DNA of 43,317 bases from a virus, in the IMG/VR virus record IMGVR_UViG_3300021057_000018, positions 1 through 43,317 of that record, one strand, 5' to 3'. Under the pieces are notes generated by a model. It worked only from the letters and a program-made list of their open reading frames with translations. It did no database searches and was not told where the DNA came from. The translations under genes and the position numbers were made by a program. Shown here piece after piece: positions 5,776-38,261 of the stretch (positions within the stretch are counted from its first letter, which is position 1; every line of letters begins with the position of its first letter).

Positions 5776-5999
5776 AGCTCACGGACGAGCAACTGGCCGC
5801 GATTCTTCAGCGCGAGAACGGACGCATCGGCCTCGAAGTGCGAGACGTGAACGGCGTGAGTTACTGGATCACGGATGTGTCGGCTAATGATCGGCTCCGC
5901 GTGTTGGCACAGGACGGACAAGCGTACTGGTTTGACTCCGAACGCAAGACGGTCACGCCCGTGAACAAGAAATGGAAGCTGATCGGCAGCGGCACGTAG
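5772..5999 (+). CDS. Small hypothetical protein
   Basis: 75 aa from a GTG that overlaps the preceding stop (GTGA). The sequence suggests a small beta-barrel: a helix (TDEQLAAILQREN), then alternating strands (IGLEVRDVNGVSYWITDVS, LRVLAQDGQAYWFDSE, KWKLIGSG). No family recognised; it may be an RNA/DNA-binding SH3-like fold. Confidence 0.65.
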   Translation: MKLTDEQLAAILQRENGRIGLEVRDVNGVSYWITDVSANDRLRVLAQDGQAYWFDSERKTVTPVNKKWKLIGSGT

Positions 6000-6087
6000 T
6001 GACGAAGGAACACGCGGGTAGAACGCGCAGGAGCGCAGCGCAAAAGACATGGCCTCACTTTTGGACACGCACGGTGCAGGAGAGCGC
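6000..6087 (+). other. Intergenic segment with repeated motifs
   Basis: 88 bases without a supported gene. It contains GGAGCGCAGCG (6030-6040), an 11-mer also present at 10929, 13090 and 42327, and CGCAAAAGACAT...GGACA (6039-6067), which recurs with small changes at 9552-9577. Its 3' end carries the AGGAG ribosome binding site for the small ORF at 6088. Confidence 0.6.
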
Positions 6088-6195
6088 ATGAGGAGACAAG
6101 AAGAACACGATTTGGGAGCACACGTGTGCCCACGGAGGGCGTCAGAGCCTTCTCCGGTGTCGGGGATGCAGCTATCGCACGACGGAATGAGCTAA
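6088..6195 (+). CDS. Small ORF upstream of methyltransferase
   Basis: 35 aa (MRRQEEHDLGAHVCPRRA...), preceded by AGGAG five bases upstream and sharing TAATG with the methyltransferase start, so it can couple translation to that gene. Its coding DNA resembles the first part of the gene at 7455 (EEHDLGAH versus EEQDLGAD; GGGATGCAGCTA in both) and contains the 13-mer CTATCGCACGACG shared with 8545 and 12667. It looks like a leader assembled from recurring early-region sequence. Confidence 0.5.
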   Translation: MRRQEEHDLGAHVCPRRASEPSPVSGMQLSHDGMS

Positions 6196-6857
6196 TGAAA
6201 CCGTACTACGAGCAAGACGGGATGACGATTTACCACGGCGATTGCAGGGATTTGCTGCAAACGGTGTATCCGTTCATCTTCAGTTGCGAATCGGTTATCA
6301 CCGACCCTGTATGGCCCAACAACTCCATTCCTGAGTTCGCTGATGTGAACCCGGCGGCTGTGTTGTCGGAGGCGCTTGCGCTTTGCACTGGTGCTGAGCG
6401 GGTAGCGGTTCACCTTGGCTGCGATTCCGATCCGCGCATGTTGACGGCCGTTCCGTCGCGGTTGGCGTTCTTTCGTGTGTGCCATCTCGAGATCGCCCGA
6501 GTGGGCTACAAGGGACGGCTCTTGATGACTGGCGATGCGGCGTATCTGTTTGGCACGCCTCCGCCTTCGGTTAAGGGCGCTCACGTCGTTCCCGGTCGAA
6601 TCATGGACCCCGATAGCGGAGGGAAACAGGCCGATCATCCGTGCCCTCGGAAAGTCGCTCACGTCCAGTTTTTGATTCGCTACTGGTCGTCACCCAAAGA
6701 CACCGTGCTTGATCCGTTCATGGGCAGCGGCACCACTTTGGTTGCCGCAAAGCAACTCGGGCGCAAGGCCGTGGGTATCGAACGTGACGAACGCTACTGC
6801 GAGCTGGCGGCGAACAGGTTGTCTCAGGGTGCCCTGCCGATGGAGTTCACAGCATGA
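6195..6857 (+). CDS. N4/N6 DNA methyltransferase (beta-type motif order)
   Basis: 220 aa from ATG 6195, preferred over upstream GTG 6126 because the family begins near MKPYYEQDGMTIYHGDC. Catalytic motif IV reads TDPVWPN (residues about 36-42) in place of the usual DPPW/DPPY. The AdoMet-binding motif follows later (DPFMGSGTTLVAAKQLGRKA, about 173-192) and is succeeded by GIERDERYCELA. The order IV then I is that of N6_N4_Mtase enzymes, and HPCPRK (about 149-153) is the usual bridging motif. There is no specificity domain or cognate nuclease, so it is an orphan enzyme that probably methylates phage DNA to avoid host restriction. Target sequence unknown. Confidence 0.85.
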   Translation: MKPYYEQDGMTIYHGDCRDLLQTVYPFIFSCESVITDPVWPNNSIPEFADVNPAAVLSEALALCTGAERVAVHLGCDSDPRMLTAVPSRLAFFRVCHLEIARVGYKGRLLMTGDAAYLFGTPPPSVKGAHVVPGRIMDPDSGGKQADHPCPRKVAHVQFLIRYWSSPKDTVLDPFMGSGTTLVAAKQLGRKAVGIERDERYCELAANRLSQGALPMEFTA

Positions 6858-7192
6858 CCCAAGCATCTCTCAATCTCTTTCACCAGCGAGACACCCAGAA
6901 GGCGGATGCCTTAGAAGCGAAGGTCTACGCCGCGCTCAAGGATGGCCAGTGGCACCTCAGAAAAGCCTTGTGTGAGGCGATCCCTGGTCTGAACGAGCGA
7001 GCGGTGCGGATGGTGGCGGCATCCTCCAAGGGCCGGATTATCGGCTCCAGCAAGGGCTACAAATTAACGGCCCACGCGACGGCCACGGAATTAGCGGAGT
7101 GGGAACGGGCGCAGCGGAGTCAGGCGAAGGAAACACTGCGGCGGATTGTGCGGACGCGGAACTGTTTCAACCGGGGAGGGCGGGCGGCATGA
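6854..7192 (+). CDS. Winged-helix-like DNA-binding protein
   Basis: 112 aa, overlapping the methyltransferase by ATGA. Residues about 20-70 (LEAKVYAALKDGQWHLRKAL, NERAVRMVAASSKGRIIGSSKGYKL) fit the phage winged-helix type in which two helices are followed by a hairpin ending at a Gly-Tyr. The C-terminal third is a basic helix (WERAQRSQAKETLRRIVRTR). Possibly a regulator or a replication accessory. Confidence 0.65.
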   Translation: MTQASLNLFHQRDTQKADALEAKVYAALKDGQWHLRKALCEAIPGLNERAVRMVAASSKGRIIGSSKGYKLTAHATATELAEWERAQRSQAKETLRRIVRTRNCFNRGGRAA

Positions 7193-7413
7193 AGTGCAAA
7201 CATCAGGCGGGTTGGTGGGCAGACGAAGTGCTGATTTGGGGCGACTCGAAAGGCATTTACATCGAAGGTCGTAACCATTCGCGGAAACGTAGGCAGCGCG
7301 GAAAGGTGCTGCTGACCTGCAACATGCAGGGATGCCGAGCTACCCGCAACGCGTATTTCGATGTGCCGATCCCGGTCAATCTCGGGCTCGTAAGCAAGGC
7401 GACGAAATCATGA
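7189..7413 (+). CDS. Small zinc-binding-like protein
   Basis: 74 aa, ATG overlapping the previous stop. It has CKHQAGWW near the start and LTCNMQGCRATRNAYFDVP near residue 46, giving C-x-H and C-x4-C positions that could hold one zinc, plus a basic segment (RNHSRKRRQRGK). Many early phage genes encode such small zinc-ribbon proteins. No defined function. Confidence 0.65.
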   Translation: MKCKHQAGWWADEVLIWGDSKGIYIEGRNHSRKRRQRGKVLLTCNMQGCRATRNAYFDVPIPVNLGLVSKATKS

Positions 7414-7454
7414 TCTCCCTTCTCACGGCTCACACGTTCGGCGGGAGGGTGTAG
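7410..7454 (+). CDS. Micro-ORF (14 aa) bridging two genes
   Basis: ATG overlaps the previous stop (ATGA); it encodes MISLLTAHTFGGRV and ends directly before the next ATG (TAG-ATG). The GGGAGGGTG inside its end is the ribosome binding site of the next gene. Probably a coupling leader. Confidence 0.35.
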   Translation: MISLLTAHTFGGRV

Positions 7455-7823
7455 ATGAAGAAGAACGAAGAACAAGATTTGGGTGCTGACGCCGCGGAGG
7501 TCGCCCTTGCAGGTTCCATCGTCAGGGATGCAGCTACCGCACGCCATACCGCCGGACCGTGGTTCGTGGAGGCTTGGTCCACGCTGGAGGTGGTGTCGGG
7601 GGTTGGGATGACCATCTGTAGAACCACAGGGGTTGCGATGCCGCTCACACCCGAGCGCGAAGCCAACGCTCGTCTGATCGCCGCCGCGCCTGAGATGTAC
7701 GAGGCGCTGAAATATGCGCTGCGCTGTTTCGACCGCGAGTCGTACGATCTGATGAAAAGCCTTGATCCGGTTCAGGCGATCGCTCTGGCGAAGCACGCCA
7801 TCGCCAAGGCCGAGGGCCGCTAG
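7455..7823 (+). CDS. Phage accessory protein with ANARLIAAAPEMYEAL signature
   Basis: 122 aa. Residues about 30-100 carry HTAGPWFVE...ANARLIAAAPEMYEALKYAL, a signature common in early genes of many phages and often found alone or fused to other segments; function unknown (Ea22-like accessory proteins). The first 28 residues (MKKNEEQDLGADAAEVAL...) resemble the small protein at 6088, which indicates a modular, exchangeable N-terminus. Ribosome binding site GGGAGGG lies within the preceding micro-ORF. Confidence 0.7.
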   Translation: MKKNEEQDLGADAAEVALAGSIVRDAATARHTAGPWFVEAWSTLEVVSGVGMTICRTTGVAMPLTPEREANARLIAAAPEMYEALKYALRCFDRESYDLMKSLDPVQAIALAKHAIAKAEGR

Positions 7824-8186
7824 ATGATCCGCGCACGCAAAGGCCACAAGTTCGGCGCGGTGCGAACCGAAGTCGATGGCGTGAAGTTCGCCAGCAAGGC
7901 GGAAGCCCGCAGGTATGCCGAACTCAAGATGCTGGAAAAGGCCGGGAAGATTCGCGGATTAGTCCTGCAGCCCAAATATCCGCTCTACGCCTACTGCGCG
8001 CGTGAGTCTCATGGATGGGAGCCGCGCGTGATCGGCAACTATATCGCGGACTTTTCGTACCTGGATAAGCAGGGAAACCAGATCATCGAGGATGTCAAAG
8101 GGATGAAGACGCCTATGTATCGCTGGAAGAAAAGGCACTTCGAGATACAGCAGGGCATCACCATCACGGAGATCACCAGCCGATGA
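7824..8186 (+). CDS. DUF1064 predicted PD-(D/E)xK nuclease
   Basis: 120 aa, starting immediately after the upstream stop. It matches DUF1064 across its whole length: KFGAVRTEVDGVKFASKAEARRYAEL (residues 9-34), YIADFSYL (73-80) and IIEDVKGMKTPMYR (87-100). Asp76, Glu89/Asp90 and Lys92 could form the metal site of a PD-(D/E)xK fold. Family members sit among phage recombination genes and are suggested endonucleases, perhaps acting on branched DNA. It may supply the nuclease partner that Bet otherwise lacks. Confidence 0.85.
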   Translation: MIRARKGHKFGAVRTEVDGVKFASKAEARRYAELKMLEKAGKIRGLVLQPKYPLYAYCARESHGWEPRVIGNYIADFSYLDKQGNQIIEDVKGMKTPMYRWKKRHFEIQQGITITEITSR

Positions 8187-8497
8187 CTCCCCACGTTGTG
8201 ATTTGGGACGGCCGCAAGGGCGGACCTGGAGGCGCGCAGTTGTACGTCGAAGAACCCCAACACGTGCCTGAGCCGCCACCCGTACCTCAACGGACCGTGA
8301 TCCGTCATACCGGCACCTTTGATCGCGTGAAGAAAGCGATCAAAACCTTCGGGTTGGACTGGTTTACCTCCGGCGAGATTCGGGAACTCACTGGGTTACG
8401 TCCCGAACAAGTGGCGACGGCACTCTATGGGTTATGTCAGCAAGGGAAGTTAGAAAAGACGATCACGCCTCGTCGGTATCGGGTGACAGGGAGGTAG
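8183..8497 (+). CDS. Winged-helix protein with proline-rich N-terminus
   Basis: 104 aa, coupled by ATGA to the DUF1064 gene. Residues 1-45 are Gly/Pro-rich and presumably flexible. Residues about 48-104 form an HTH with wing: FDRVKKAIKTFGLDWFTSGEIRELTGLRPEQVATALYGL, then CQQGKLEKTITPRRYRV. This resembles phage replication or regulatory wHTH units. Confidence 0.7.
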   Translation: MTPHVVIWDGRKGGPGGAQLYVEEPQHVPEPPPVPQRTVIRHTGTFDRVKKAIKTFGLDWFTSGEIRELTGLRPEQVATALYGLCQQGKLEKTITPRRYRVTGR

Positions 8498-8499
8498 GA

Positions 8500-8892
8500 A
8501 TGCAAGACGAAACGCATGATGGCGCTGCGCTCACGGAGGGCGATCTATCGCACGACGCGAAGGTAGTTGAAGCCTTACGGAAGTTTCTATCAGGCGTTGA
8601 ACCGAACGTCGATCAAATTGGTATCAACGCGCCTACTTACGGATGGGGCACATGCGGAGCGAACGGCCAGTGGGAGTACCCAGTTCACCCCGCGTTGGTG
8701 GAGCTACGCCGAGACGCGAAGTGCGCCCCTCGGTATCACGAGTTGATCTATGCCGTCGCTCGGGTGCATCCGGGCGAGACGCGCCATCAAACCGCGCTCC
8801 GCTACATCACCGAGCGCGAAATGGTCGGCTCTCACGGTAACCCAGCATCGACTGCGGTAGCCAGCGGGTCGGCACAGAGCGAAGCGCCATGA
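8500..8892 (+). CDS. Hypothetical early protein with mosaic N-terminus
   Basis: 130 aa from ATG 8500 (GGGAGG upstream). The first 20 residues (MQDETHDGAALTEGDLSHD) belong to the recurring early-region tag that includes CTATCGCACGACG. The central domain (about 40-110) has TYGWGTCGANGQWEYPVHPAL and HPGETRHQTALRYI, unrecognised, with conserved-looking Trp and Cys. The tail is Ala/Ser-rich (ASTAVASGSAQSEAP). Start overlaps are absent, but the stop overlaps the next gene by ATGA. Confidence 0.65.
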   Translation: MQDETHDGAALTEGDLSHDAKVVEALRKFLSGVEPNVDQIGINAPTYGWGTCGANGQWEYPVHPALVELRRDAKCAPRYHELIYAVARVHPGETRHQTALRYITEREMVGSHGNPASTAVASGSAQSEAP

Positions 8893-9092
8893 TGTTCTTG
8901 CGTCGTCTCATCTCCGGCTGGGACTCGGACTATCTGGATGACTGGTCCCCTCGACGAGCGAAGCACTACGAAGCACGAACGTATCGCTACTTGGGTATCC
9001 GTCCGGAGCCGATCTTTACCTGGTCGAGGAAGTTTCGACCGAAGGTGAAATCGACCGTGATGAAGATCGCGGATCGTCGGAAGGCGTCTTGA
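8889..9092 (+). CDS. Small basic protein
   Basis: 67 aa, ATGA-coupled to the gene before. Very basic and aromatic (SPRRAKHYEARTYRYLGIRPEPIFTW), ending KIADRRKAS. No membrane segment. No family recognised; possibly nucleic-acid binding. Confidence 0.6.
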   Translation: MMFLRRLISGWDSDYLDDWSPRRAKHYEARTYRYLGIRPEPIFTWSRKFRPKVKSTVMKIADRRKAS

Positions 9093-10594: not shown

Positions 10595-10945
10595 ATGGGA
10601 ATGTTTGATCAGCTTGAGTGCAAGCGTCCGTTGCCCGATCTCGGGATTGTGGATGGCGCGCCGTGGCAAACCAAAGACTTCTTCTGCGAGATGGCCACCC
10701 TGACGATCACCGACGACGGCAGGCTGCTACGAGCGGGCGGTCTTTTCAATAACTCGCCTCAGGTGGAAGTGAACTACCACGGCGATCTGTGCTTCTACTC
10801 GGATCGAGACGGCGTTTGGTTCGAGTATGTCGCTCGGTTCACTGAGGGGCGGTTGTCCCGAATCTGGCGCGTGGTCGAAGAAACGGACGGCAACCAGGCT
10901 GCAACGCAGTCCAGCGGTGTCAACCGTGGGAGCGCAGCGAAATGA
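10595..10945 (+). CDS. Conserved phage protein (MGMFDxLECxxPLPD family)
   Basis: 116 aa. It opens MGMFDQLECKRPLPDLG, then WQTKDFFCEMATLTITDDGRLL and VEVNYHGDLCFYSD. This is a family frequent in early regions of tailed phages, predicted mostly beta, function unknown. The tail (about 90-116) is polar and ends NRGSAAK, encoded by the recurrent GGAGCGCAGCG motif (10929-10939). The stop overlaps a micro-ORF. Confidence 0.75.
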   Translation: MGMFDQLECKRPLPDLGIVDGAPWQTKDFFCEMATLTITDDGRLLRAGGLFNNSPQVEVNYHGDLCFYSDRDGVWFEYVARFTEGRLSRIWRVVEETDGNQAATQSSGVNRGSAAK

Positions 10946-10998
10946 TCGTCCTCGCAACCTTACAACCTGTTGACTTGAAAGAGGTATCCCGTGACTGA
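10942..10998 (+). CDS. Micro-ORF (18 aa) bridging two genes
   Basis: ATG overlaps the previous stop; it encodes MIVLATLQPVDLKEVSRD and ends inside the start of the next gene (10991). The preceding GGGAGCG is a suitable ribosome binding site. Same arrangement as at 3316, 7410 and 13466. Confidence 0.35.
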   Translation: MIVLATLQPVDLKEVSRD

Positions 10999-11179
10999 GA
11001 TCAACTGGCCAGCAGGGAAAATTGTCTTTCATCAGGGTGACTGGAAGTGTCGCGTCGTGACCGATCACGGCGAGTCGATCACATACGAGCCGCTAGAGGG
11101 CGTTCTTCCTGAATGCCGAGGGCGTGTGTTCACGGCCGCGAAAGACCTGTTCAAAACAGAGCGGAGGAAGCGTGGCTGA
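10991..11179 (+). CDS. Small beta-rich protein
   Basis: 62 aa from a GTG (AGAGG upstream). The sequence WPAGKIVFHQGDWKCRVVTDHGESITYEPLEG suggests three to four strands, with a basic end (KTERRKRG). The stop lies inside the next gene. Unknown function. Confidence 0.55.
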   Translation: MTEINWPAGKIVFHQGDWKCRVVTDHGESITYEPLEGVLPECRGRVFTAAKDLFKTERRKRG

Positions 11180-11597
11180 GATCACGCGAACGTTGAAAGA
11201 CTTGGCTTGGGTCAAGAAGTTCATTGAATACGCTCGTTATGAGCTACAGCCCGGAGAAACGCAGGTAGGCGATCAGTTTCCACGGCAGGCGGACGCGGAT
11301 AAGGCCATTCGTATTCTTGACGCCTTACTCGTCAGCGGCACGCCCGGAGAAGAACAAGTGAAAGAAGAAAACGATCATGGCGCAGGGCTCATCCATCAAG
11401 TTGCAAGTCCCTTAGCGGAGACCGAGCCGCGTCTGAGCATCCCGATTTCGGCCGAGGAGCTTGATTGGGTTGAACACGCGGCTCGTCTGCGACATCTGCC
11501 CGTAGTCGAATACGTGCGACGGGCAATCAACCTTTCACTGCGTAAAGAGGGTGTAGACGCCCTGTTGCTCGCCCAGAGCGACGACGACGAGGTTTAA
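11172..11597 (+). CDS. Mosaic hypothetical protein with RHH-like C-terminus
   Basis: 141 aa from GTG 11172 with GGAGG upstream. Residues 1-50 are helical (TRTLKDLAWVKKFIEYARYEL). LLVSGTPGEEQVKEENDHG (about 51-69) is the first copy of a linker repeated in the next two genes, identical over 30 bases with the third. The C-terminal part (about 90-130) reads RLSIPISAEELDWVEHAARLRHLPVVEYVRRAI, as in a ribbon-helix-helix DNA-binding protein. Confidence 0.65.
   Translation: MAEITRTLKDLAWVKKFIEYARYELQPGETQVGDQFPRQADADKAIRILDALLVSGTPGEEQVKEENDHGAGLIHQVASPLAETEPRLSIPISAEELDWVEHAARLRHLPVVEYVRRAINLSLRKEGVDALLLAQSDDDEV
11327..11356 (+). repeat. Linker repeat copy 1 (30 bp)
   Basis: Thirty bases starting ACTCGTCAGCGGCACGCCCG, identical to 12312-12341. 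They encode LVSGTPGEEQ in frame in both genes. A 21-base version is at 12081-12101. Confidence 0.85.
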
Positions 11598-13788: not shown

Positions 13789-14267
13789 ACGACTTGAGTT
13801 ACGAGCACGCCAAGGAACGGCTGGAGTCCGCTCTGCGCCACTACGAGAACCACGGCATACCGACGAATCCCAAGGACTACGCCGACAAGGAGCAGGCTAT
13901 TGAGCGATTCGCGCAGTTCGTGCGTGACGAGATGGCGCAAAGCTCCAGTCTCGGCCAAAAGACGAATGCGTTTCTGTTGTCAGTGATGCGTTCGGCCGAG
14001 TTGCACTTTCGTCTACGCGCAAAAGAAGTCTTAGCTACGAATACCGGAGCCGACATGCGCGAGGTGGGAACCTCTGAGGGTTGGGAGGATGCGGCGGACT
14101 GGTGTAAGTCCGTCAAGTTCGCTTCTCATCAGTTTCTCTATGACGAGGCGTTGAAGGCTGGTTTGGAGCCGCCGATGAATCTGATCTGCGAGCAAAACAC
14201 TGGCATTCATGTGTATCAGCGCTCCGATGGCAAGTTTTACCATTGGCCAGAGGAGACGCTGTTTTGA
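13785..14267 (+). CDS. Hypothetical protein
   Basis: 160 aa from ATG 13785. N-terminal helices (SYEHAKERLESALRHYENHGIP) and a C-terminal part with WEDAADWCKSVKFASHQFLYDEAL and GIHVYQRSDGKFYHWPEE, which reads like a small beta-sheet. No known family. Its last codons contain the TTG start of the next gene. Confidence 0.6.
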   Translation: MNDLSYEHAKERLESALRHYENHGIPTNPKDYADKEQAIERFAQFVRDEMAQSSSLGQKTNAFLLSVMRSAELHFRLRAKEVLATNTGADMREVGTSEGWEDAADWCKSVKFASHQFLYDEALKAGLEPPMNLICEQNTGIHVYQRSDGKFYHWPEETLF

Positions 14268-14551
14268 ATAGACGTACCTTTCTTACCCTCTTCTCCAGCC
14301 TGCCCTTCGTGGGGAGGTTGGTACCGAAGCCTGAGCCGGCGTGGGCTGTTGTCCGCCCTGGGTTTAAGGTTCGTGTGGCCCGTGAGCTGCTAACGATGGA
14401 GCAGCGGCCTGGTCACAGCGTCTACGTGTGTCCGTTTGGTCTGCCCACGCTCGGCCATCCCGAATGCGAGTGTAAGCATCACGCGATTCACCGCTCCTAC
14501 ATCTCGGGTAATCTCCGGGATTCTGGTTTCAGTGTGAGCGACTGGCTGTGA
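14264..14551 (+). CDS. Small protein with Tat-like signal and Cys/His motif
   Basis: 95 aa from TTG 14264 (TTGA overlap with the previous stop; GAGGAG upstream). The N-terminus (M)NRRTFLTLFSSLPFVGRL has twin Arg, x, Phe-Leu and a hydrophobic stretch, as in a twin-arginine signal. The body contains YVCPFGLPTLGHPECECKHH, a C-x-C-x-H-H cluster that could carry a metal. Export by Tat would suit a folded metal-binding protein. It is separated from a second Tat-type gene (15471) by about 0.9 kb. Confidence 0.6.
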   Translation: MNRRTFLTLFSSLPFVGRLVPKPEPAWAVVRPGFKVRVARELLTMEQRPGHSVYVCPFGLPTLGHPECECKHHAIHRSYISGNLRDSGFSVSDWL

Positions 14552-15141: not shown

Positions 15142-15471
15142 GTGACTGTCTCTGATCGACTCGCCCAATCCAGGGCTTTCCACAATTCCGCGAAACTCGC
15201 GCGCCGTGCTGGGCGTGTGGATGATGCTCTATCTGCGATTCAGCAAGCCTATGAGCTGAGGCAGGCCGCGCACCAGTCCGATCCCGATCACCTCGATCAA
15301 GCGTGGGCGGAAGAGCCGTCCCTGAAATTCCACCATGACGCGCTGCTCGTGTTCTACCAGGCGGAACTATCCAAAGACGTGCATCAGGAGCGAGAAGTCG
15401 CTAAGTCACGGAGAGAGAAAGGCTTAGCGATTGCGATGGAAGCGGCAAAGCCGAAGGGCGGGGTGATGTGA
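15142..15471 (+). CDS. TPR-like helical protein
   Basis: 109 aa from GTG 15142; no clear ribosome binding site, but the start abuts a palindrome. RAFHNSAKLARRAGRVDDALSAIQQAYELRQAA has the spacing of a helix-turn-helix repeat of TPR type, followed by FHHDALLVFYQAELSKD. First gene of the block that leads into the terminase. Function unknown; perhaps a regulator or assembly factor. Confidence 0.6.
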   Translation: MTVSDRLAQSRAFHNSAKLARRAGRVDDALSAIQQAYELRQAAHQSDPDHLDQAWAEEPSLKFHHDALLVFYQAELSKDVHQEREVAKSRREKGLAIAMEAAKPKGGVM

Positions 15472-15740
15472 TGTTGGGACGCAGAGGCTTTCTTAAGGCG
15501 ATTGGCGCTGGCGTGCTCGGCTTGTCGATCGCATTACGCCGCCCGGACGCGCCCATAGCATTCGAGCCTGAGCCTGATGCTGGTTATCGCATCGGTGACA
15601 CCGTTCGGGTCCGTCTGCCGCAGCGTTTTGTTGTGCGGGATGGCGATGCGCTCAACCCTCAGCCCATTGTGGACCATTACGTCAATGTGGTGATTACGGA
15701 CGCAGACATGGCTGCGCGTCTACAGGGAGTGCGCCTTTGA
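15471..15740 (+). CDS. Tat-signal protein carrying a coat-protein-like segment
   Basis: 89 aa from ATG 15471 (TGATG overlap; a GTG three bases upstream is an alternative). The first 22 residues are a convincing twin-arginine signal: MLGRRGFLKAIGAGVLGLSI, with RRGFLK followed by a hydrophobic helix. Residues 41-79 (IGDTVRVRLPQRFVVRDGDA and on) align without gaps to residues 45-83 of this phage's coat protein, 22 of 39 identical by my count, including VRLPQRFV and VxITD. In a 17-base stretch (GTCCGTCTGCCGCAGCG) the DNA is identical. The protein ends shortly after, so only a coat fragment is exported. Directly upstream of terminase. Role unknown; possible exclusion factor or decoy, or a coat-gene duplicate. 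Confidence 0.75.
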   Translation: MLGRRGFLKAIGAGVLGLSIALRRPDAPIAFEPEPDAGYRIGDTVRVRLPQRFVVRDGDALNPQPIVDHYVNVVITDADMAARLQGVRL

Positions 15741-15761: not shown

Positions 15762-16190
15762 ATGCCACGCGGCGGACCCCGACCGAATTCCGGCCCCAAG
15801 AAGGGCACCAAGCATGCCAGCACGATCAGCAAGGAGCAGGCGCGAGAAGCCCTCCGCCAGATCGTGTTGCGCGAGATGGATAGCCTCGTGGCTGCCCAGA
15901 TGGCCCAAGCCAAGGGCCTGAGCTACATGGTCGTCAGAGACAAGGCCACGGGCAAGTTTCTGCGGGTGGCTGAGGATCAGGCGAAGAACCTGAAACCGGA
16001 CGAGCAGGTGATCGAGATTTGGGAGAAAGACCCGTCTGTGCAGGCGTTTACGGACCTGATGAACCGGGCGCTCGACAAACCAAAAGACCAGGAGCAAGAG
16101 GTCAAGGTTGCGGTCGTTTCCCAGATGTCCGATGAGGAATTAGCCGCAAAGGCGGCGCTGTTGCTGTCACAGGTGAAGCGTGGCCAGTAG
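15762..16190 (+). CDS. Small terminase subunit
   Basis: 142 aa. The N-terminus MPRGGPRPNSGPKKGTK is the basic Gly/Pro motif common at the start of small terminase subunits. A helical core (TISKEQAREALRQIVLREMDSL) and a C-terminal acidic helical end follow. Small subunits bind the packaging site and regulate the motor. The large subunit starts 11 bases inside its end. Family assignment rests on position and N-terminus, as these proteins diverge strongly. Confidence 0.75.
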   Translation: MPRGGPRPNSGPKKGTKHASTISKEQAREALRQIVLREMDSLVAAQMAQAKGLSYMVVRDKATGKFLRVAEDQAKNLKPDEQVIEIWEKDPSVQAFTDLMNRALDKPKDQEQEVKVAVVSQMSDEELAAKAALLLSQVKRGQ

Positions 16191-17610
16191 TGAACTGGTG
16201 GCGGTGGTGGCGGAGCTTGAGCGCCGGGCGGCGTGTAAGTTTGGGCACTACTTTCCGGACGATGGCCCCTTTCGACGCGAGCTCTATCCGCGCCACATGG
16301 ATTTTTTTCAGGGTGGTGCGTCGTTTAAAGAGCGGCTGTTTATGGCCGCGAACCGTGTCGGGAAGTCTGAGGGCGGGGCCTTTGAGGTGACCTGTCACCT
16401 GACCGGGCGCTATCCGTCCTGGTGGGCGGGCCGGCGCTTTGATGGACCCGTTGAAGTCTGGGCGTGTGGCACGACCTCAGAAACCACGCGGGACATTGTG
16501 CAGACCAAGCTGTTCGGCCCGATCGATAAGGTGGGGGACTGGACAGGCGGGATGGTGCCGCCGCATCTGATCTCGAGCTTCACGCGCCGGCCGCACGGCT
16601 TGCCCAATTCTCTCGAAAGCGTGTGGGTGCGGCATGTCTCTGGTGGGAAGTCCGTGGTTGGCCTCAAGACGTACGAACAGGGCCGCAAGTCGTTCGAGGG
16701 CACGGCCAAGCATGTCATCTGGTGCGATGAGGAGCCACCGCAGGATTGCTACACCGAAATGCTCTACCGCACGATGACCACAAAGGGTTTAGTGCTCGTC
16801 ACGTTTACGCCCTTGCAGGGCATGTCGGACGTGGTGACGGGCTTTCTCGAGCCCACGGAAGACGCCAAGGCGCGGAAGTACTTTGTGCAGGCGGGCTGGA
16901 ACCATGTCCCGCACTTGGACGAGGACGAGAAGGCGGCGCTGATTGCCACCACGCCGCCGTTTCAGTTAAAGGCCCGCACGGAAGGCGAGCCGTCGCTGGG
17001 TGCCGGCGCGATTTACCCGATCAATGAAGAGGCGATCACGGTCCCGACTCGTCAGGTACCGGAGAGCTGGCGTCGTGTCTACGGGATGGATGTGGGCTGG
17101 AACCGCACTGCAGTGATTTGGGCCGCGCAAGATCCAGGCACGGGTGGCTTTGAGTTGTACGACCTCCACTATCAGGGACAGGGTGAGCCCGCGAGTCATG
17201 CCGCCGCGATCCGTGCGCGTGGGAGTTGGATCAAGGGCGTGATTGATCCGGCATCGGTCGCGTCGAACATCAAGGACGGCACGAAGCTGATCGACGTGTA
17301 TCGCTCGGCGGAATTGGGCTTAGACCTGCAGTTTGCGGAGAACGCGGTGGAAGCGGGGATCACGGTGATGTGGAACTTGCTGATTTCGGGCCGGCTGAAG
17401 GTGCAAGCGCATTTGTTCGCGTGGTTCGCGGAGTTCCGGAAGTATCACCGGGACGAGAAGGGGAAGATCGTGAAGGCGAACGATCACTTAATGGACGCCA
17501 CGCGCTACCTAGTGGTGTCGGGTGGGCCGTATCTCGGGCTGAAGCCGGAGCCGGTGAACGCAATGGCGGGACAGAACCTCAATGACCCGCTGGCATGGAT
17601 GGGCGCATGA
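16180..17610 (+). CDS. Large terminase subunit (packaging ATPase/nuclease)
   Basis: 476 aa from GTG 16180. ATPase motifs: Walker A AANRVGKS (56-63), Walker B VIWCDEEPP (179-187) with catalytic Glu, and a coupling motif around LVTFTPLQG (206-214). RNase H-like nuclease acidic residues: MDVGW (Asp304), VIDPAS (Asp356) and DHLMDATRYL (Asp435/Asp439). The length and motif set match P22-like headful terminases. It drives genome packaging through the portal and cuts the concatemer once the head is full, consistent with the circularly permuted ends of this window. Confidence 0.95.
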   Translation: MASSELVAVVAELERRAACKFGHYFPDDGPFRRELYPRHMDFFQGGASFKERLFMAANRVGKSEGGAFEVTCHLTGRYPSWWAGRRFDGPVEVWACGTTSETTRDIVQTKLFGPIDKVGDWTGGMVPPHLISSFTRRPHGLPNSLESVWVRHVSGGKSVVGLKTYEQGRKSFEGTAKHVIWCDEEPPQDCYTEMLYRTMTTKGLVLVTFTPLQGMSDVVTGFLEPTEDAKARKYFVQAGWNHVPHLDEDEKAALIATTPPFQLKARTEGEPSLGAGAIYPINEEAITVPTRQVPESWRRVYGMDVGWNRTAVIWAAQDPGTGGFELYDLHYQGQGEPASHAAAIRARGSWIKGVIDPASVASNIKDGTKLIDVYRSAELGLDLQFAENAVEAGITVMWNLLISGRLKVQAHLFAWFAEFRKYHRDEKGKIVKANDHLMDATRYLVVSGGPYLGLKPEPVNAMAGQNLNDPLAWMGA

Positions 17611-17870
17611 GCGGGCAGAACGGATTTACGAGTTTCCAGGCAGCAGCTCTGAAGCTGGCCAACAAACGCGAGGAGCACGCCGCCATCATGGCGGTGATTA
17701 ACAACCACGCGGACGGGATCGATCACCTGATGAGTGGCTTGGAGAAGATGTTTTACGAGCTGCAGAAGCGGGACTTTCAGATTGAGGCGTTACTGGATGG
17801 GAACGCGAACCTGACGAAGCGTGTTGAAGCGTTGGAAGCCGAGCGGGCGGAAGGATTGGACGCGCTATGA
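17607..17870 (+). CDS. Small coiled-coil protein
   Basis: 87 aa from ATG 17607, ATGA-coupled to both neighbours. Residues about 20-80 are a heptad-rich helix (KREEHAAIMAVINNHADG, then MFYELQKRDFQIEALLDG and LTKRVEALEAERAEGL). Its place between terminase and portal suggests a head assembly accessory, but no known family is recognised. Confidence 0.7.
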   Translation: MSGQNGFTSFQAAALKLANKREEHAAIMAVINNHADGIDHLMSGLEKMFYELQKRDFQIEALLDGNANLTKRVEALEAERAEGLDAL

Positions 17871-18046
17871 AGGTGCTAGTAAGGGGCGGCTCACAGGATG
17901 GGCAGGTTATTGGGCTTGGCCGGGTGATTCATTTCGGGGGGCCGGACTGGATTGATCCCGAATCGACTGATTTCGATCAGCGCAGCGATAAGTCCGCGAC
18001 GTACGAGTTGCGACCGCTGAAAGCCGCGAGCGTGACGCATGGCTAA
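17867..18046 (+). CDS. Small hypothetical protein before portal
   Basis: 59 aa, ATGA-coupled to the preceding gene and overlapping the portal start by eight bases. It is beta-rich: MKVLVRGGSQDGQVIGLGRV, IHFGGPDWIDPE, ATYELRPLKAASVTHG. No family recognised. Confidence 0.65.
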   Translation: MKVLVRGGSQDGQVIGLGRVIHFGGPDWIDPESTDFDQRSDKSATYELRPLKAASVTHG

Positions 18047-20366
18047 ATCCGCCCTGTTCGGTCGTGACGAGAAAGTCCAAGCGGCCCTCGACTTCCAGAA
18101 GCTCTCGTCTGAAGCCTTCGGCATGCAGCGCAAGCGCGAGGATGACGATCTCGCCTTCCAGGTGCCTGAAAAGCAGTGGCCGGAGAACGTCAAGCAGATG
18201 CGACAGGGGCAGACCGTGCAGGGCGTGCCGTTGCCGGCGCAGCCCATGCTCTCGATCCCCTCCCTGAATCAGCCGATTCGGCAGGTCTACAACCAGTTCA
18301 CACGGGCGCATTTGGGGATTCACGTCAGCCCGAAGTCACAGGACGCCAATCAGGAGACCGCGGAAGTCATCCAAGGGCTGTACCGGCAGATCGAGGTGGA
18401 CTCGCGCGCGTATCTGGCTCGGAACTGGGCCGCAGATCGGGCCTTTAAGTGTGGGTTCGGGGCGTATCGCGTGGATGTGGTCTATGACCAGGAGACCGAC
18501 GATCCGGACGACCTGAAGATCGTCATCAAGCGCATTCTCCGCCAGTCGAGCGTCTATTGGGATCCGTTCGCGGTGGAACCTGATTTCTGCGACATGACGC
18601 GCTGCCTGATCGTGTCGTGGATGAGCCGTAGCCAGTTCAATCGGGAGTTTCCCGACGCGAGGATGGCGGGGCTGTCCACCGACGAAATGATCGATATGCA
18701 GTCCCAGATGCCGAACTTTACGATCTGGAACGTCGATCCGATCAAGGGCGGTGAGCCGATGAAGGGCTCGGAACAGGTGAAGTGGTACGACGGGGCCAAT
18801 GACGCCGTGTGCATCGCGGAGTACTTCTACATGGAGTACGAAGGCACCGGCAAAGAGCGCAAGCCGGTCGTCAAGTGGTGCAAGATCAACGCGCTCGAAG
18901 TGCTGGAAGAGGGCACCTGGAACGGGCGGTATATCCCGATCATCCCGGCGATTGGTGAAGAGTTGCAGCCGTTCGACACCGAGCGCCGGTGGGCGGGAAT
19001 GATCACCCCGAATAAGGATGCGGCCCGCACGATCAACTACGAAATCACGTCGGCGGTGATTAAAGACTCCCTATCCACAAAAGCGCCGTGGGTGGGCTAC
19101 GTGGGCCAATTCAAGACAATGCAGGCTCAGTGGCAGTTGGCAAACGTCCGCAACTTTACACACTTGGAAGTTGATCCGGTCATGGTTGGTGGGCAGTTGG
19201 CCCCGCTGCCGATGCGGAACCTCGATAGCCCGGATTTGTCCTCATCGATCGCGCTGATTCAGTTGGCCAAGGATGCGCTCTCCACCGGCACGGCCATCGT
19301 GGATACGTCCTCGCTGCAGAACCTCGCCAAGCGCAAGGTGGCGCATCAAACCTTGGCGGGGATGGCGGAAGAGAACACCGTCAGTCAGTCCCAGTACGTC
19401 GACAACATGGCGCAGATCAGCATGACCTATGAAGCGAAGGTCGTGCTCGATCTGATGCCGAAGGTCTACGACCGTGCCGGGCGCATGGTGCAAGTTCGGG
19501 AGGAGGACGGGACGCAGCGGGAAGTGATCCTCGGCCAGCCGTTTGTGAAGCATCCGAAGACGGGCCGGCCGTTGGCGCTTCCGCAAGGGATTGGCCTGAT
19601 GCCGCCGGGCATCGATCCGTCAAAGGCGCAGAAGTTTGATCTGTCGAAGGGCGTCTATGGCGTCATTGTGGACATCGGCAAGAGCTACAAGACCCGCGCA
19701 CAGGAAGGCTCGGATGCATTCGGGGCGATTCTGGAACGTGTCCCGAACATGATCCCGATGCTCGGGGATATTTGGATGAACTTCCAAGACTTCCCCGGTC
19801 ACAAGGAAGCGGCCAAGCGCATGAAGAAGATGCTGCCACCGCAGTTGCAGGATTCGGGGGATGAGGAGAACGACCCCGAGGCGATTAAGGCGCAGCGCGA
19901 TCAGGCGGCAATGCTGATCGAGCAGTTGACGCAGCAGTTGCAGCAGGCGCAAAAGCTGATTGAAACCGACCAGATCAAGGCGCAGGCGGACCTCGAAAAG
20001 GCCAAGATCGACGGGGCCACGAAGCTTGAGATCGCCAAGATGCAGATGGACGCAGACTTGCGGATTGCGGCCATGCAGGCGCGGGCGAAGGATGCGCAGG
20101 AGCAGATCAAGGCAATCGCGGCGATGGCGAAACAGGACGATCAGCAGCGGTTTGAGCACGCGGAGAACGCGGTGGATCGGGCGCATGAATCGGCCAAGCT
20201 GGAACAGCAGACGGAACTCGCGGAGGCGCAGGCCGAGAACCAGGCGCGGCGGGAAGTGGCACAGGGCGCGGTGGCGCATTCACAGGAACTTGAAAAGGGC
20301 GAACAGGGGCACGCGCAAGCGGTGGATTTGCAGGCGCGACAGCCGAAACCGGAGAAGGGTGAATAG
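18039..20366 (+). CDS. P22-like portal protein
   Basis: 775 aa, close to the size of P22 gp1. The N-terminal part (about 1-120) contains QPMLSIPSLNQPIRQVYNQ and LYRQIEVDSRAYLARNWAADRAFKCGFGAYRVD, typical of this portal family; the central part has WDPFAVEPDFCDMTRCLIVS and IPAIGEELQPFDTERRWAGM. From about residue 620 the sequence becomes a long Gln/Ala/Glu-rich coiled-coil (AMLIEQLTQQLQQAQKLIET, AKAQ-type repeats to the end), comparable to the P22 portal barrel. Twelve copies would form the DNA channel and tail attachment site. Confidence 0.95.
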   Translation: MAKSALFGRDEKVQAALDFQKLSSEAFGMQRKREDDDLAFQVPEKQWPENVKQMRQGQTVQGVPLPAQPMLSIPSLNQPIRQVYNQFTRAHLGIHVSPKSQDANQETAEVIQGLYRQIEVDSRAYLARNWAADRAFKCGFGAYRVDVVYDQETDDPDDLKIVIKRILRQSSVYWDPFAVEPDFCDMTRCLIVSWMSRSQFNREFPDARMAGLSTDEMIDMQSQMPNFTIWNVDPIKGGEPMKGSEQVKWYDGANDAVCIAEYFYMEYEGTGKERKPVVKWCKINALEVLEEGTWNGRYIPIIPAIGEELQPFDTERRWAGMITPNKDAARTINYEITSAVIKDSLSTKAPWVGYVGQFKTMQAQWQLANVRNFTHLEVDPVMVGGQLAPLPMRNLDSPDLSSSIALIQLAKDALSTGTAIVDTSSLQNLAKRKVAHQTLAGMAEENTVSQSQYVDNMAQISMTYEAKVVLDLMPKVYDRAGRMVQVREEDGTQREVILGQPFVKHPKTGRPLALPQGIGLMPPGIDPSKAQKFDLSKGVYGVIVDIGKSYKTRAQEGSDAFGAILERVPNMIPMLGDIWMNFQDFPGHKEAAKRMKKMLPPQLQDSGDEENDPEAIKAQRDQAAMLIEQLTQQLQQAQKLIETDQIKAQADLEKAKIDGATKLEIAKMQMDADLRIAAMQARAKDAQEQIKAIAAMAKQDDQQRFEHAENAVDRAHESAKLEQQTELAEAQAENQARREVAQGAVAHSQELEKGEQGHAQAVDLQARQPKPEKGE

Positions 20367-20848: not shown

Positions 20849-21919
20849 ATGCTGAAGGACGCCGGATCGGCAACGACCGGGTCTTTTCAGTCTGACGGCG
20901 TTCGCTACGACAGCAATTCTATGTCCGGCGAGGACATGAAGGCGCTGTTTGAGTCAGCCGACGCTCCTGCCGACGCACCTGTCACCACTCCCGAGCCTGA
21001 AACACCGGAGGGCGGCGAGTCTGAAGCCTCTGCCGACGCCACGCCCGCCGATCCCGCCCCGAAGCCCGGTCTTGAGACCAAGCCTGTTGAAGGCGACAAG
21101 ACCCCCAAGGGCAAAAAGAACCCGCAAGAGCGCATTGATCGCATCACGTTTGAGCGCGAAGAAGCCAAGCGTGATGCGGCGAAGGAGCGGCAGGCCCGCG
21201 AAGAGGCGGAGCGCCGGTATACGAGCGAGTTCCAGTCTCTCCGGGCCGAACTCGAAGCGCTGAAGGCTCCAAAGCAGCAGGATCAGCCGAAGCCGAAAGC
21301 CTTTGCTGCTGACCCCAATGAACCCAAGCTCGCGGACTTCCAGGATCAGGAAGACCCGTACGCCGCCTGGATGTTTGCGAAGTGGGAATACAAGCAGGAA
21401 CAGAAAGAACTGCAGGCCCGCGAAGCCTTCCAGCGCCAGCAGGTTGAGCAAGAGCAGCACGCCAAGCGTGAGCAGGAAGTCACGCGCATCCGCGAGTTTG
21501 GTCAGCGGATGGAAACACATTTCGCCTCCAACCCGGAATTGCGTGAGCAGTTGTTTGGGCCACATGGCCCCAAGCTGCACCGCGCCGGGTGGGAAGTAAT
21601 CATGGGATCGCAAATCCCTGAGCAACTTTGCGCGTATCTCGCGCAAAACCCGGAGGCGGAGCAGCGCATCAGCGCCGCCCCCCCTCTGCAGCAGTACCGG
21701 GAACTCACCCGGATTGAATTCGAGCTGGAGAAGGCTGCGACCACCGGATCGGCCGCTCCAGTTAAGCCCAAAACGTCCGCGCATCCTCCTGTCAGTCCGG
21801 TCAGTGGATCGCATGCGGCCCCTCGCTCCGGTGAGCCCGGCCCAGACGCGTCGTACGAAGAGCACGCCGCGTACTGGAACCGAGTCGAAGCGGAACAGAG
21901 ACGGGCCGGTCGTAGGTAA
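20849..21919 (+). CDS. Scaffolding protein
   Basis: 356 aa, directly before the coat gene as in P22. The N-terminal 110 residues are acidic and Pro/Ala-rich (TTPEPETPEGG...). A long helical core follows with heptad character (ERIDRITFEREEAKRDAAKE, QSLRAELEALKA, EQEVTRIREFGQRMETH), and the C-terminus is basic (VEAEQRRAGRR), the expected coat-binding end of P22-type scaffolds. It would direct procapsid assembly and leave before packaging. Assigned by position and composition; sequence identity among scaffolds is low. Confidence 0.8.
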   Translation: MLKDAGSATTGSFQSDGVRYDSNSMSGEDMKALFESADAPADAPVTTPEPETPEGGESEASADATPADPAPKPGLETKPVEGDKTPKGKKNPQERIDRITFEREEAKRDAAKERQAREEAERRYTSEFQSLRAELEALKAPKQQDQPKPKAFAADPNEPKLADFQDQEDPYAAWMFAKWEYKQEQKELQAREAFQRQQVEQEQHAKREQEVTRIREFGQRMETHFASNPELREQLFGPHGPKLHRAGWEVIMGSQIPEQLCAYLAQNPEAEQRISAAPPLQQYRELTRIEFELEKAATTGSAAPVKPKTSAHPPVSPVSGSHAAPRSGEPGPDASYEEHAAYWNRVEAEQRRAGRR

Positions 21920-21921
21920 GT

Positions 21922-23133
21922 ATGGCGAACAATTATTTTCAGTCGCCGCTCTGGATTGGACGCGAAGTCCTGCGTGTAGCCGAGAACGAGACGCGCTTTG
22001 TCCGCAACATCGACAAGAAGCTCTCAGACGATTTCCTCGTCTCGGGTACCAAGGTTGGCGGCACCGTGGGTGTCCGTCTGCCGCAGCGCTTCGTGACCAA
22101 GAAGGGCCAGGCGCTTCAGGAACAGGGCATTAACGATCAGGTGGTCTACGTGACCATCACCGATCAGGCGCAGGTGGCATGGGGCTGGTCCTCGATGCAG
22201 GCCACGCTCGACGTGCAGGATACCCGTGAGCGCTACGTGCGTCCGGCCGCCGTGCAGATCGCGAACACGATGGACAAGGATGGCCTCGGCCGTCTGTATC
22301 AGGACATCTACTTCGCGCAGGGCACGCCGGGGACCACGCCGACCGCCAACACTACGTATTTTGCGCTGGCCGATGATCTGACGCAGATCGCGGCGGTCCC
22401 GAAGGACAACCGCAACATGGTGATCGATGCCGTGATGGGCACCGCGATTGCCAACGCAAACATCACCCTCTTCCAGCCGAAGGCGGACTTCTTCGAGGGC
22501 ATGATGGCCGCCAACGCGCTTAAGTGGAAAGAGTGGTGGGAGGACGTGAACATTGCGTCTCACACCTACGGCACCTACGGCGGCACGCCGCTGGTGAATG
22601 GCGCATCGCAGACCGGCACGTCGCTGGTGACGGATGGCTGGTCCTCGGGTGCCTCGACGCTGAACAAGGGCGACGTGTTCACGATTGGCTCAGGCTCGAC
22701 CGCGGTCAAGGCCGTGAACGTGCAGGGCTATCAGGATGCGGGACTGGCGCAGAAGTTTGTCGTGACCCAGACGGTGAGTGATTCCACTGGGGCCATGACG
22801 ATTTCGATTTCGCCGTCCATTATCACCTCGGGCGCATATCAGACGGTGGTCGCCTCGCCGGCGGATAACGCCACGATCAACGTCACGGGCTCGTCAGGTG
22901 TCACGTCGCGTCAGGGCTTGGGCTTCCACCGGGAAGCGTTCGTCATGGCGGGCGCGGATCTGGTGATGCCGAACCAGGGCAAGGCCGAGCGCGTGCGTGC
23001 GCCGAAGTCGGGCCTGTCACTGCGGTACTGGGAAGCCTCAGACATCCGCACCGATTCACACCCCTCGCGTCTGGATGTCATCTACGGCTTCAGAACGCAG
23101 CGCGCCGATTGGGCCGGCCGCATTCAGGGCTAA
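21922..23133 (+). CDS. Major coat protein (P22 gp5-like)
   Basis: 403 aa. It starts MANNYFQSPLWIGREVLRVAE, and the N-arm/early region contains GGTVGVRLPQRFVTKKGQAL, VYVTITDQAQVAWGWSS and REYRV-type ERYVRPAAVQIANTMD, the set seen in P22-family coat proteins with an HK97 fold. An insert-like region (about 225-330) is rich in Ser/Thr/Gly (SGASTLNKGDVFTIGSGST), corresponding in position to the P22 I-domain. Residues 45-83 are echoed by the Tat protein at 15471-15740. Confidence 0.95.
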   Translation: MANNYFQSPLWIGREVLRVAENETRFVRNIDKKLSDDFLVSGTKVGGTVGVRLPQRFVTKKGQALQEQGINDQVVYVTITDQAQVAWGWSSMQATLDVQDTRERYVRPAAVQIANTMDKDGLGRLYQDIYFAQGTPGTTPTANTTYFALADDLTQIAAVPKDNRNMVIDAVMGTAIANANITLFQPKADFFEGMMAANALKWKEWWEDVNIASHTYGTYGGTPLVNGASQTGTSLVTDGWSSGASTLNKGDVFTIGSGSTAVKAVNVQGYQDAGLAQKFVVTQTVSDSTGAMTISISPSIITSGAYQTVVASPADNATINVTGSSGVTSRQGLGFHREAFVMAGADLVMPNQGKAERVRAPKSGLSLRYWEASDIRTDSHPSRLDVIYGFRTQRADWAGRIQG

Positions 23134-37417: not shown

Positions 37418-37620
37418 TGGGCGAATGTTGCTTGCTTGGGATTTGCTGCCCGCCAGAACAGCGGCAGGCGAATATGACAGCACATTTCGTCGCGCTCGGG
37501 TTTGATCCGGAGCGGGCGAGCGCGGCGGCGAGTGAAGCTTTGCGGATGGTTGATCTGGTGCTCGCGCTGTCACCGGGCCGCGTGGCTGAGATTGCGCTGA
37601 AGCATAAGGGGAAGCCGTAA
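37417..37620 (+). CDS. Small Cys-rich protein
   Basis: 67 aa. It starts MGECCLLGICCPPEQRQANM, with four Cys in the first 11 residues; a helical remainder follows (AHFVALGFDPERASAAASEA). It has no membrane segment, though the cluster of Cys might be a lipid- or metal-binding site. It starts in the TAATG of the previous gene and ends in the TAATG of the next. Unknown function, maybe lysis-linked. Confidence 0.6.
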   Translation: MGECCLLGICCPPEQRQANMTAHFVALGFDPERASAAASEALRMVDLVLALSPGRVAEIALKHKGKP

Positions 37621-38261
37621 TGCGCCGCATCCTTGTTGCACTTCTGCTGTGTGTCTCGGTACCAGCCTTCGCGCAGGTCCCGAATGAATCCGCGCTGGTC
37701 AAGAAGCTGTATGACACGGGTTTCTATGACCTGAAGACCGAAGAGGGGCACGGCGCATTCGTCGATGTCGTGGTGTCCACGCTCCACGCGAAGGACGAGC
37801 GGTGGCTGCACCTCAAAAAGAAACCGGGGCAGACGCAGGTACACGGTCACGCCGAAGACGCGGTGATCTATCTGGTACCGCCCCCGGCATTGTCCGTCGC
37901 CGTCGATTTTATCGGTGGGTCCGGTGGACCGAACCCTGGGCCCGGATGGATCGTGCAGAAGGCGGAGTACACCAAAGCTGATGGCCTTGATCCGACCGTG
38001 CACGTCGCGTCGGCTCCGCCCGCGCCGTTGCCACCGGTTTATCCGCCGTATCCGCAACCGGAAGACGCATTGGACGGTGCTGGCGTGGCGCTGTTTGTGG
38101 ATTTCGCAGAAGCGGGCCAGCAGCCTAATCAGCAGATGTTCAGATTCGCCTTTCGCGTGGCCTATGACTGGCTGACCAAGAACGTCGCCACGCTGGACGC
38201 CTCGATTGCGAAACACCGCCGCGAGTGGCGCGGGCTGCTCGGGTTGAAGCCTGAGCCATGA
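37620..38261 (+). CDS. Secreted protein of unknown function
   Basis: 213 aa. Residues 1-19 (MRRILVALLLCVSVPAFAQ) are a clear Sec signal peptide with AFA as cleavage site, so the mature protein is exported to the periplasm or outside. The mature part contains YDTGFYDLKTEEGHGAFVDV and a Pro-rich hinge (APPAPLPPVYPPYPQPEDAL) before a helical C-terminal part. A secreted phage protein after the lysis genes could be an outer-membrane/lysis accessory (o-spanin-like but with no lipobox). Confidence 0.65.
   Translation: MRRILVALLLCVSVPAFAQVPNESALVKKLYDTGFYDLKTEEGHGAFVDVVVSTLHAKDERWLHLKKKPGQTQVHGHAEDAVIYLVPPPALSVAVDFIGGSGGPNPGPGWIVQKAEYTKADGLDPTVHVASAPPAPLPPVYPPYPQPEDALDGAGVALFVDFAEAGQQPNQQMFRFAFRVAYDWLTKNVATLDASIAKHRREWRGLLGLKPEP

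Follow-up and report, generated by a model that had tools for sequence, protein, structure and literature searches.

We provide evidence for a class of phage genes in which a twin-arginine (Tat) signal is joined to a short piece of a major capsid protein. As read from the sequences, we are nearly certain that this anatomy is that of a real and selected gene class. The arrangement of a Tat or membrane signal followed by a capsid piece recurs in many uncultivated bacterial viruses and is apparently undescribed; it links the main virion protein to a protein-export route of the host. Our preferred reading, to which we give a probability of about 0.35, is that the product is an envelope-targeted mimic of the capsid that would remove a capsid-binding factor from the cytoplasm. 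The likeliest target would be a host capsid sensor, with the gene acting as a counter-defence decoy.

Results

The window ORF and its neighbourhood

The ORF under study lies at 15471-15740 of the window, by which we mean the whole stretch of viral DNA analysed (43,317 nucleotides, IMG/VR record IMGVR_UViG_3300021057_000018). The relevant features, all on the plus strand, are as follows.

14261-14551, plus strand: second twin-arginine ORF (VLNRRTFLTLFSSLPFVGRL...), start codon uncertain, without coat similarity
15142-15471, plus strand: upstream ORF with a weak TPR-like match (Pfam)
15460-15467, plus strand: GGGGTGAT, possible ribosome-binding site of the ORF at 15471-15740 (from the sequence)
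15471-15740, plus strand: ORF with Tat leader and coat fragment, ATG at 15471, stop at 15738-15740, 89 aa
15471-15542, plus strand: predicted twin-arginine signal, residues 1-24, RRGFLK and a hydrophobic stretch (TIGR01409)
15579-15716, plus strand: coat-like piece, residues 37-82, E-loop region of the coat (alignment, phrog_283, coat HMM)
16180-17610, plus strand: terminase large subunit (PF03237, E=8e-22)
18039-20366, plus strand: P22-type portal (PF16510, E=8e-91)
20849-21919, plus strand: scaffold protein (phrog_8865, E=2e-18)
21922-23133, plus strand: P22-type major coat protein, 403 aa (PF11651, P22_CoatProtein, E=3e-21; phrog_283, E=5e-57)
22042-22179, plus strand: coat residues 41-86, the part that the Tat ORF resembles (alignment and search of the record)

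The translation of the ORF is MLGRRGFLKAIGAGVLGLSIALRRPDAPIAFEPEPDAGYRIGDTVRVRLPQRFVVRDGDALNPQPIVDHYVNVVITDADMAARLQGVRL. Its start overlaps the stop of the preceding ORF (TGATG), to which it is probably translationally coupled. Ribosome-binding sites lend weak support across the set, a recognisable core being present in 11 of the 31 ORFs checked. The gene lies directly upstream of the terminase genes, which are followed by those for portal, scaffold and coat. Elsewhere in the window, an ORF of 213 aa (37620-38261, plus strand) begins with a Sec-type signal (MRRILVALLLCVSVPAFAQ...).

A Tat signal at the N-terminus had been claimed in a first-pass annotation of this DNA, and NCBIfam TIGR01409 bears this out by matching residues 3-24 with 19.1 bits, above its curated cut-off of 16.7. 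A Pfam scan of the ORF gave zero matches, TAT_signal included, and PF11651 did not reach E<1.

The best local alignment pairs residues 37-82 of the ORF with residues 41-86 of the coat at a score of 107, while the scores of 2000 shuffles averaged 28.8 and did not exceed 52; in the comparison within its own contig, the ORF matches the coat at z=19.4. When used as a query against the virus record, the ORF returned the coat (E=1.5e-9), and it is matched by PHROG 283 (major head protein) at residues 34-82 (E=4e-5) and by a coat HMM through HMM positions 40-81 (E about 5e-12). An ungapped run of 22 identities in 39 residues had been reported earlier; the count is exact but the numbering was off by one, as the residues are 42-80 of the ORF and 46-84 of the coat. 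An identity of 17 bases between the ORF and the coat gene, also reported, is real. Over 39 codons the two genes agree at 25 first, 28 second and 16 third positions; because the third positions have diverged, the similarity is old and at the protein level, with no recent copy. Recent gene conversion with the coat was ruled out by the shortness of the DNA identity together with the diverged third positions. The coat-like residues make up 46 of the coat's 403, which falls short of a full-length coat subunit of about 400 residues, and the ORF is, by its predicted content, the bearer of a fragment and not a coat protein. AlphaFold models the coat-like part as two strands and a helix, with a pLDDT of about 80, and assigns the leader values below 50.

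The description of the fragment as a piece of the phage's own coat was too specific, since it scores 108, 108 and 107 against the coats of other phages. A piece as similar to other coats as to its own may be directed at competitors, as the first-pass annotation had suggested. It would poison the capsid assembly of a co-infecting relative or block its entry, acting in a dominant-negative way or by superinfection exclusion. Exclusion factors are often small proteins targeted to the membrane. However, the phage's own capsid would be poisoned too, the capsid stays out of the periplasm when a phage infects, and a search of bacterial and archaeal genomes with the leader pattern described below gave no prophage carrier. 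Exclusion of competitors is, in our view, improbable.

Recurrence of the architecture

Searches of close relatives with the window ORF returned coats only and no homologue with the window's coat piece. A contig found through its coat (L006) has a Tat ORF with a C-terminus similar to the N-arm of the coat, and a coat HMM scan of 73 sequences yielded further non-coat ORFs with an RR leader, among them one matching the N-arm (L045). Two RR ORFs (L030 and L031) match the I-domain region of the coat (profile 225-352) with E values of about 1e-12 to 1e-13.

Several of the ORFs with RR and a coat piece have in common a leader segment, DxERLLWVPGxKTIFLP. A DNA pattern for this segment, chosen without regard to coats, was applied to viral contigs and found 73 stretches, 72 of which have twin arginines upstream and a variable C-terminus after the segment. 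Beyond the window there are thus 72 phage ORFs made up of RRxFL, a hydrophobic stretch, DxERLLWVPGxKTIFLP and a variable C-terminus. The match in L093, without twin arginines upstream, was rejected as due to chance. A second leader pattern added coat-matching cases (L280, L281, L286, L287, L294, L297 and L299). The LLWVPG segment is absent from the window ORF and the RR signal is present, as in L030 and L031; judged by these motifs, the window ORF is part of a wider Tat-plus-coat architecture and lies outside the RR-LLWVPG motif family. The joining of a Tat signal to a coat piece, as the first-pass annotation had proposed for this one ORF, is supported and extends to dozens of phages and three capsid families.

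Three leader-bearing ORFs (L077:3187-3618, L135:5081-5455 and one in L285) share another, non-coat C-terminus. A related segment, DPERALWVPGRKxIFxP, occurs without a twin-arginine signal or hydrophobic stretch in L288:752-1237, L295:7452-7937 and, on the minus strand, L292, the last of which shows a very weak match to capsid. This segment may serve some purpose other than export.

Isolated phages, searched by tblastn with the window, L006, L113 and L105 proteins, gave no Tat chimera, only coats or chance matches. In bacterial and archaeal genomes the leader pattern, which covers only ORFs with the LLWVPG segment, had eight matches and no Tat ORFs among them. A literature search of incomplete coverage found no description of Tat/capsid-piece proteins, and a description elsewhere is possible.

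Specificity for the coat

Each of 82 twin-arginine ORFs was compared with the non-overlapping proteins of 180 aa or more from its own contig; contigs were taken whole where possible. At z>6 there were matches in 31 of 60 ORF-coat pairs versus 0 of 1561 pairs with other own-contig proteins. At least one chimera was present in 29 of the 36 contigs with an identified coat; among these 36, the window and G071 had been selected through coat similarity and the rest came from the motif search. One apparent non-coat match (G029 10616-11296) is a pair of tail-protein paralogues in which the RR is not an N-terminal signal, and it was excluded from the count beforehand. Coat profiles at E<0.01 matched 32 of 58 C-termini versus 0 of 58 reversed and 0 of 580 shuffled sequences. 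When these 58 proteins were scanned with the full set of PHROGs, the only matches were to phrog_283 (4 members) and phrog_1302 (1 member), the latter being matched also by the window coat itself. The statistical signal excludes every other phage protein tested.

Capsid families and the pieces used

Three capsid families are involved: P22-type, phrog_14242-type and Mu gpT-type. The C-terminus of the L105 ORF matches an ORF of 418-445 aa, mostly at the N-terminus of the latter, in 12 of 17 related contigs; this larger ORF sits after an acidic scaffold-like ORF and matches the phrog_14242 major head protein (E=1.8e-5). The L109 ORF resembles the middle of the phrog_14242-type capsid protein, and G011 has a second, adjacent Tat ORF similar to the C-terminus of that protein. 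The AlphaFold model of the phrog_14242-type coat has a mean pLDDT of 41.6, too low to be relied on. The protein matched in G044 is a capsid protein of the Mu gpT type (PF10124, E=2e-9; PF25209, E=6e-13), two pieces of which are present in swapped order with scores of 78 and 48 against a shuffle maximum of 41.

The N-arm region is the commonest piece, and the E-loop, I-domain and C-terminus are recurrent, these domain names being presumed from position and from general knowledge of P22 and HK97 coats. Judged by eye, positions of about 82 to 228 of the P22-type coat profile are not confidently used. Distant pieces can be joined, as in L073/G028 (N-arm and C-terminus), G064 (N-arm and I-domain) and G060 (C-terminus, then I-domain); in some of the joined-piece ORFs the weaker partner is close to shuffle level. 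Some phages carry two to four twin-arginine/coat-piece ORFs. Four consecutive twin-arginine ORFs lie in G060 at 15820-18987 (L249), at least two of them with different coat pieces. In L037, adjacent ORFs between portal and scaffold (5895-7076 and 7079-8953) have nearly identical beginnings (MGQGPATIRAPWVQR) and are apparently a tandem duplication.

These pieces bear on the suggestion, made in the first-pass annotation, that the fragment is exported as a folded unit. This part of the proposal is not supported: the pieces are mostly single linear elements, sometimes permuted, for which independent folding is not known, and autonomous folding would be plausible for the I-domain cases only. They also bear on whether an exported coat piece might act outside the cell, displayed on the envelope or on the debris of lysis. 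The Tat signal predicts a non-cytoplasmic destination and some I-domain cargos (L030 and L031) could fold alone, but the majority of cargos are short linear stretches, and the N-arm, which normally lies buried in the shell, would make a poor surface ligand. We give display very little credence.

Selection and gene context

In related pairs where it could be computed, C-terminal dN/dS was 0.09-0.31, with the exception of L030/L031 (0.78); the C-terminus is under purifying selection in most related pairs. These values stand against the view that the coat part is functionless, a leader cassette having repeatedly caught bits of coat gene by illegitimate duplication and the bits then drifting. Such a process would fit the mosaic and permuted pieces, for example in L299, where an N-arm and E-loop are joined to a weaker C-terminal match, and the 17-base DNA identity in the window. 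It fits poorly with the picking of the coat alone (none of the 1561 other pairs), which is seen across three capsid families and without exception in the sense frame, and we consider it most unlikely.

In 11 phrog_14242-type phages the C-termini are collinear with the capsid N-terminus. For these pieces the own coat ranks 1 to 8 of 11, a slight own-coat preference (p=0.0145). Similarity between C-termini tracks coat similarity in the same 11 phages (Mantel r=0.47, p=0.003), and so does that between signals (r=0.41, p=0.012); because the signal correlates too, shared ancestry explains much of the correlation between C-terminus and coat.

The first-pass proposal had advised looking for homologues with the same architecture near terminase genes. 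The architecture does recur, but in P22-type phages the Tat gene is usually near the portal gene, mostly directly upstream of it, and it is the window copy that lies near terminase. The phrog_14242-type phages carry the gene in the DNA-polymerase module, with the coat encoded on the other strand; its neighbours are usually a cold-shock-domain-like gene immediately before it and an HTH-like gene after it (names from our own reading of the sequences). The three genes form a conserved early-module trio in G011, G014-G016, G018, G019, G021, G022 and others. Overall, the Tat ORF is on the strand opposite the coat in 18 of 44 cases.

Gene context and choice of pieces together raise the main rival to our reading, a role in capsid assembly. 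A membrane-bound coat piece could engage coat or scaffold via inter-subunit contacts and so tether, nucleate or throttle procapsid assembly at the inner membrane. In HK97-fold coats the N-arm, E-loop, I-domain and C-terminus are elements expected to contact neighbours or scaffold, and the pieces are mostly of this kind; the P22-type gene, moreover, is usually directly upstream of portal. However, the Tat leader would direct cargo out of the cytoplasm, the phrog_14242-type gene is outside the structural module and on the other strand, and the pieces, at about 40-56% identity, have diverged and show no special fit to their own coat. We regard an assembly role as possible but rather unlikely.

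Discussion

Under the preferred reading, an envelope-targeted capsid mimic, the product would be made in the cytoplasm, where it would present a capsid-like peptide and bind whatever normally recognises the capsid protein. The Tat route, by which export is predicted, would park the mimic at the inner membrane or carry it across, and the capsid-binding factor would thereby be taken out of the cytoplasm. A host sensor of the capsid protein would be the most likely target, which would make the gene a counter-defence decoy. Judging from its signal, the protein probably enters the Tat system or is held at the inner membrane by an anchor, and the arrangement may let the virus intercept, anchor or mimic a binder of its shell protein.

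Because the cargo is capsid-like and the part used varies, what matters for function seems to be that it is recognised as capsid protein, whether by coat, scaffold or a third party. The use of different pieces from three families is what would be expected if the need is for capsid recognition and not for keeping one domain. A third party is favoured by the variable pieces, the multiple copies and the replication-module location in one group, whereas assembly is favoured by the other group's placement of the gene among structural genes and by the use of contact elements. In phrog_14242-type phages, a place in the DNA-polymerase module on the opposite strand would allow expression before the coat.

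The points in favour of a decoy are that only the coat is matched, that the pieces vary and occur in multiple copies, the dN/dS values and the existence of capsid-triggered defences. Capsid protein or peptide triggers several defences, including CapRel-SJ46 and Lit/Gol, and links have been reported for PifA and Pycsar (PMC9712102). However, a decoy must bind its sensor without triggering it, and the P22-type gene, beside portal or terminase, is probably expressed late. To our knowledge, no sensor is known for the carrier phages. Tat-dependent export is only predicted: TIGR01409 at E<0.05 matches 24 of 58 proteins of the set, and Pfam TAT_signal matches 11 of 58 relatives. In addition, no coat piece can be recognised in about 45% of leader-bearing ORFs. 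We hold the decoy reading tentatively.

The chances seem evenly balanced that at least three capsid families have repeatedly evolved Tat-targeted mimics of capsid peptides, as a distinct and undescribed class acting either as decoys versus capsid-sensing immunity or as membrane anchors on capsid proteins. The pattern points to an undiscovered factor that recognises capsid protein, and it offers an annotation rule applicable to many phage ORFs that currently carry the label hypothetical or 'Tat-signal protein'.

Comparison with known systems

The C-terminal pieces of the chimeras are homologous to the P22-type coat (PF11651, phrog_283), the phrog_14242 major head protein and Mu gpT (PF10124). 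Unlike these major capsid proteins, the chimeras have only 20-120 residues of capsid sequence, an added Tat leader, another gene position and sometimes a permuted order, and they cannot form a capsid subunit. With Tat substrates and signal anchors (TIGR01409, PF10518) they have in common RRxFL and a hydrophobic stretch; they differ in the DxERLLWVPGxKTIFLP that follows the signal in most members and in a cargo that is a capsid piece, not a cofactor enzyme.

The prophage protein Tab blocks virion assembly of other phages, namely tail assembly, and as a small phage-encoded protein acting on virion assembly it is a precedent for exclusion of competitors (PMC10884400). The likeness is one of description, and the description of Tab mentions neither a capsid piece nor a Tat leader (PMC10884400). 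CapRel-SJ46 recognises the capsid protein of SECphi27, and Lit recognises the Gol peptide of T4 gp23 (PMC9712102). Those capsid-triggered defences are host-side or plasmid systems, whereas here the phage encodes extra capsid peptides behind a signal; by analogy, the chimeras may be connected to defences of this kind.
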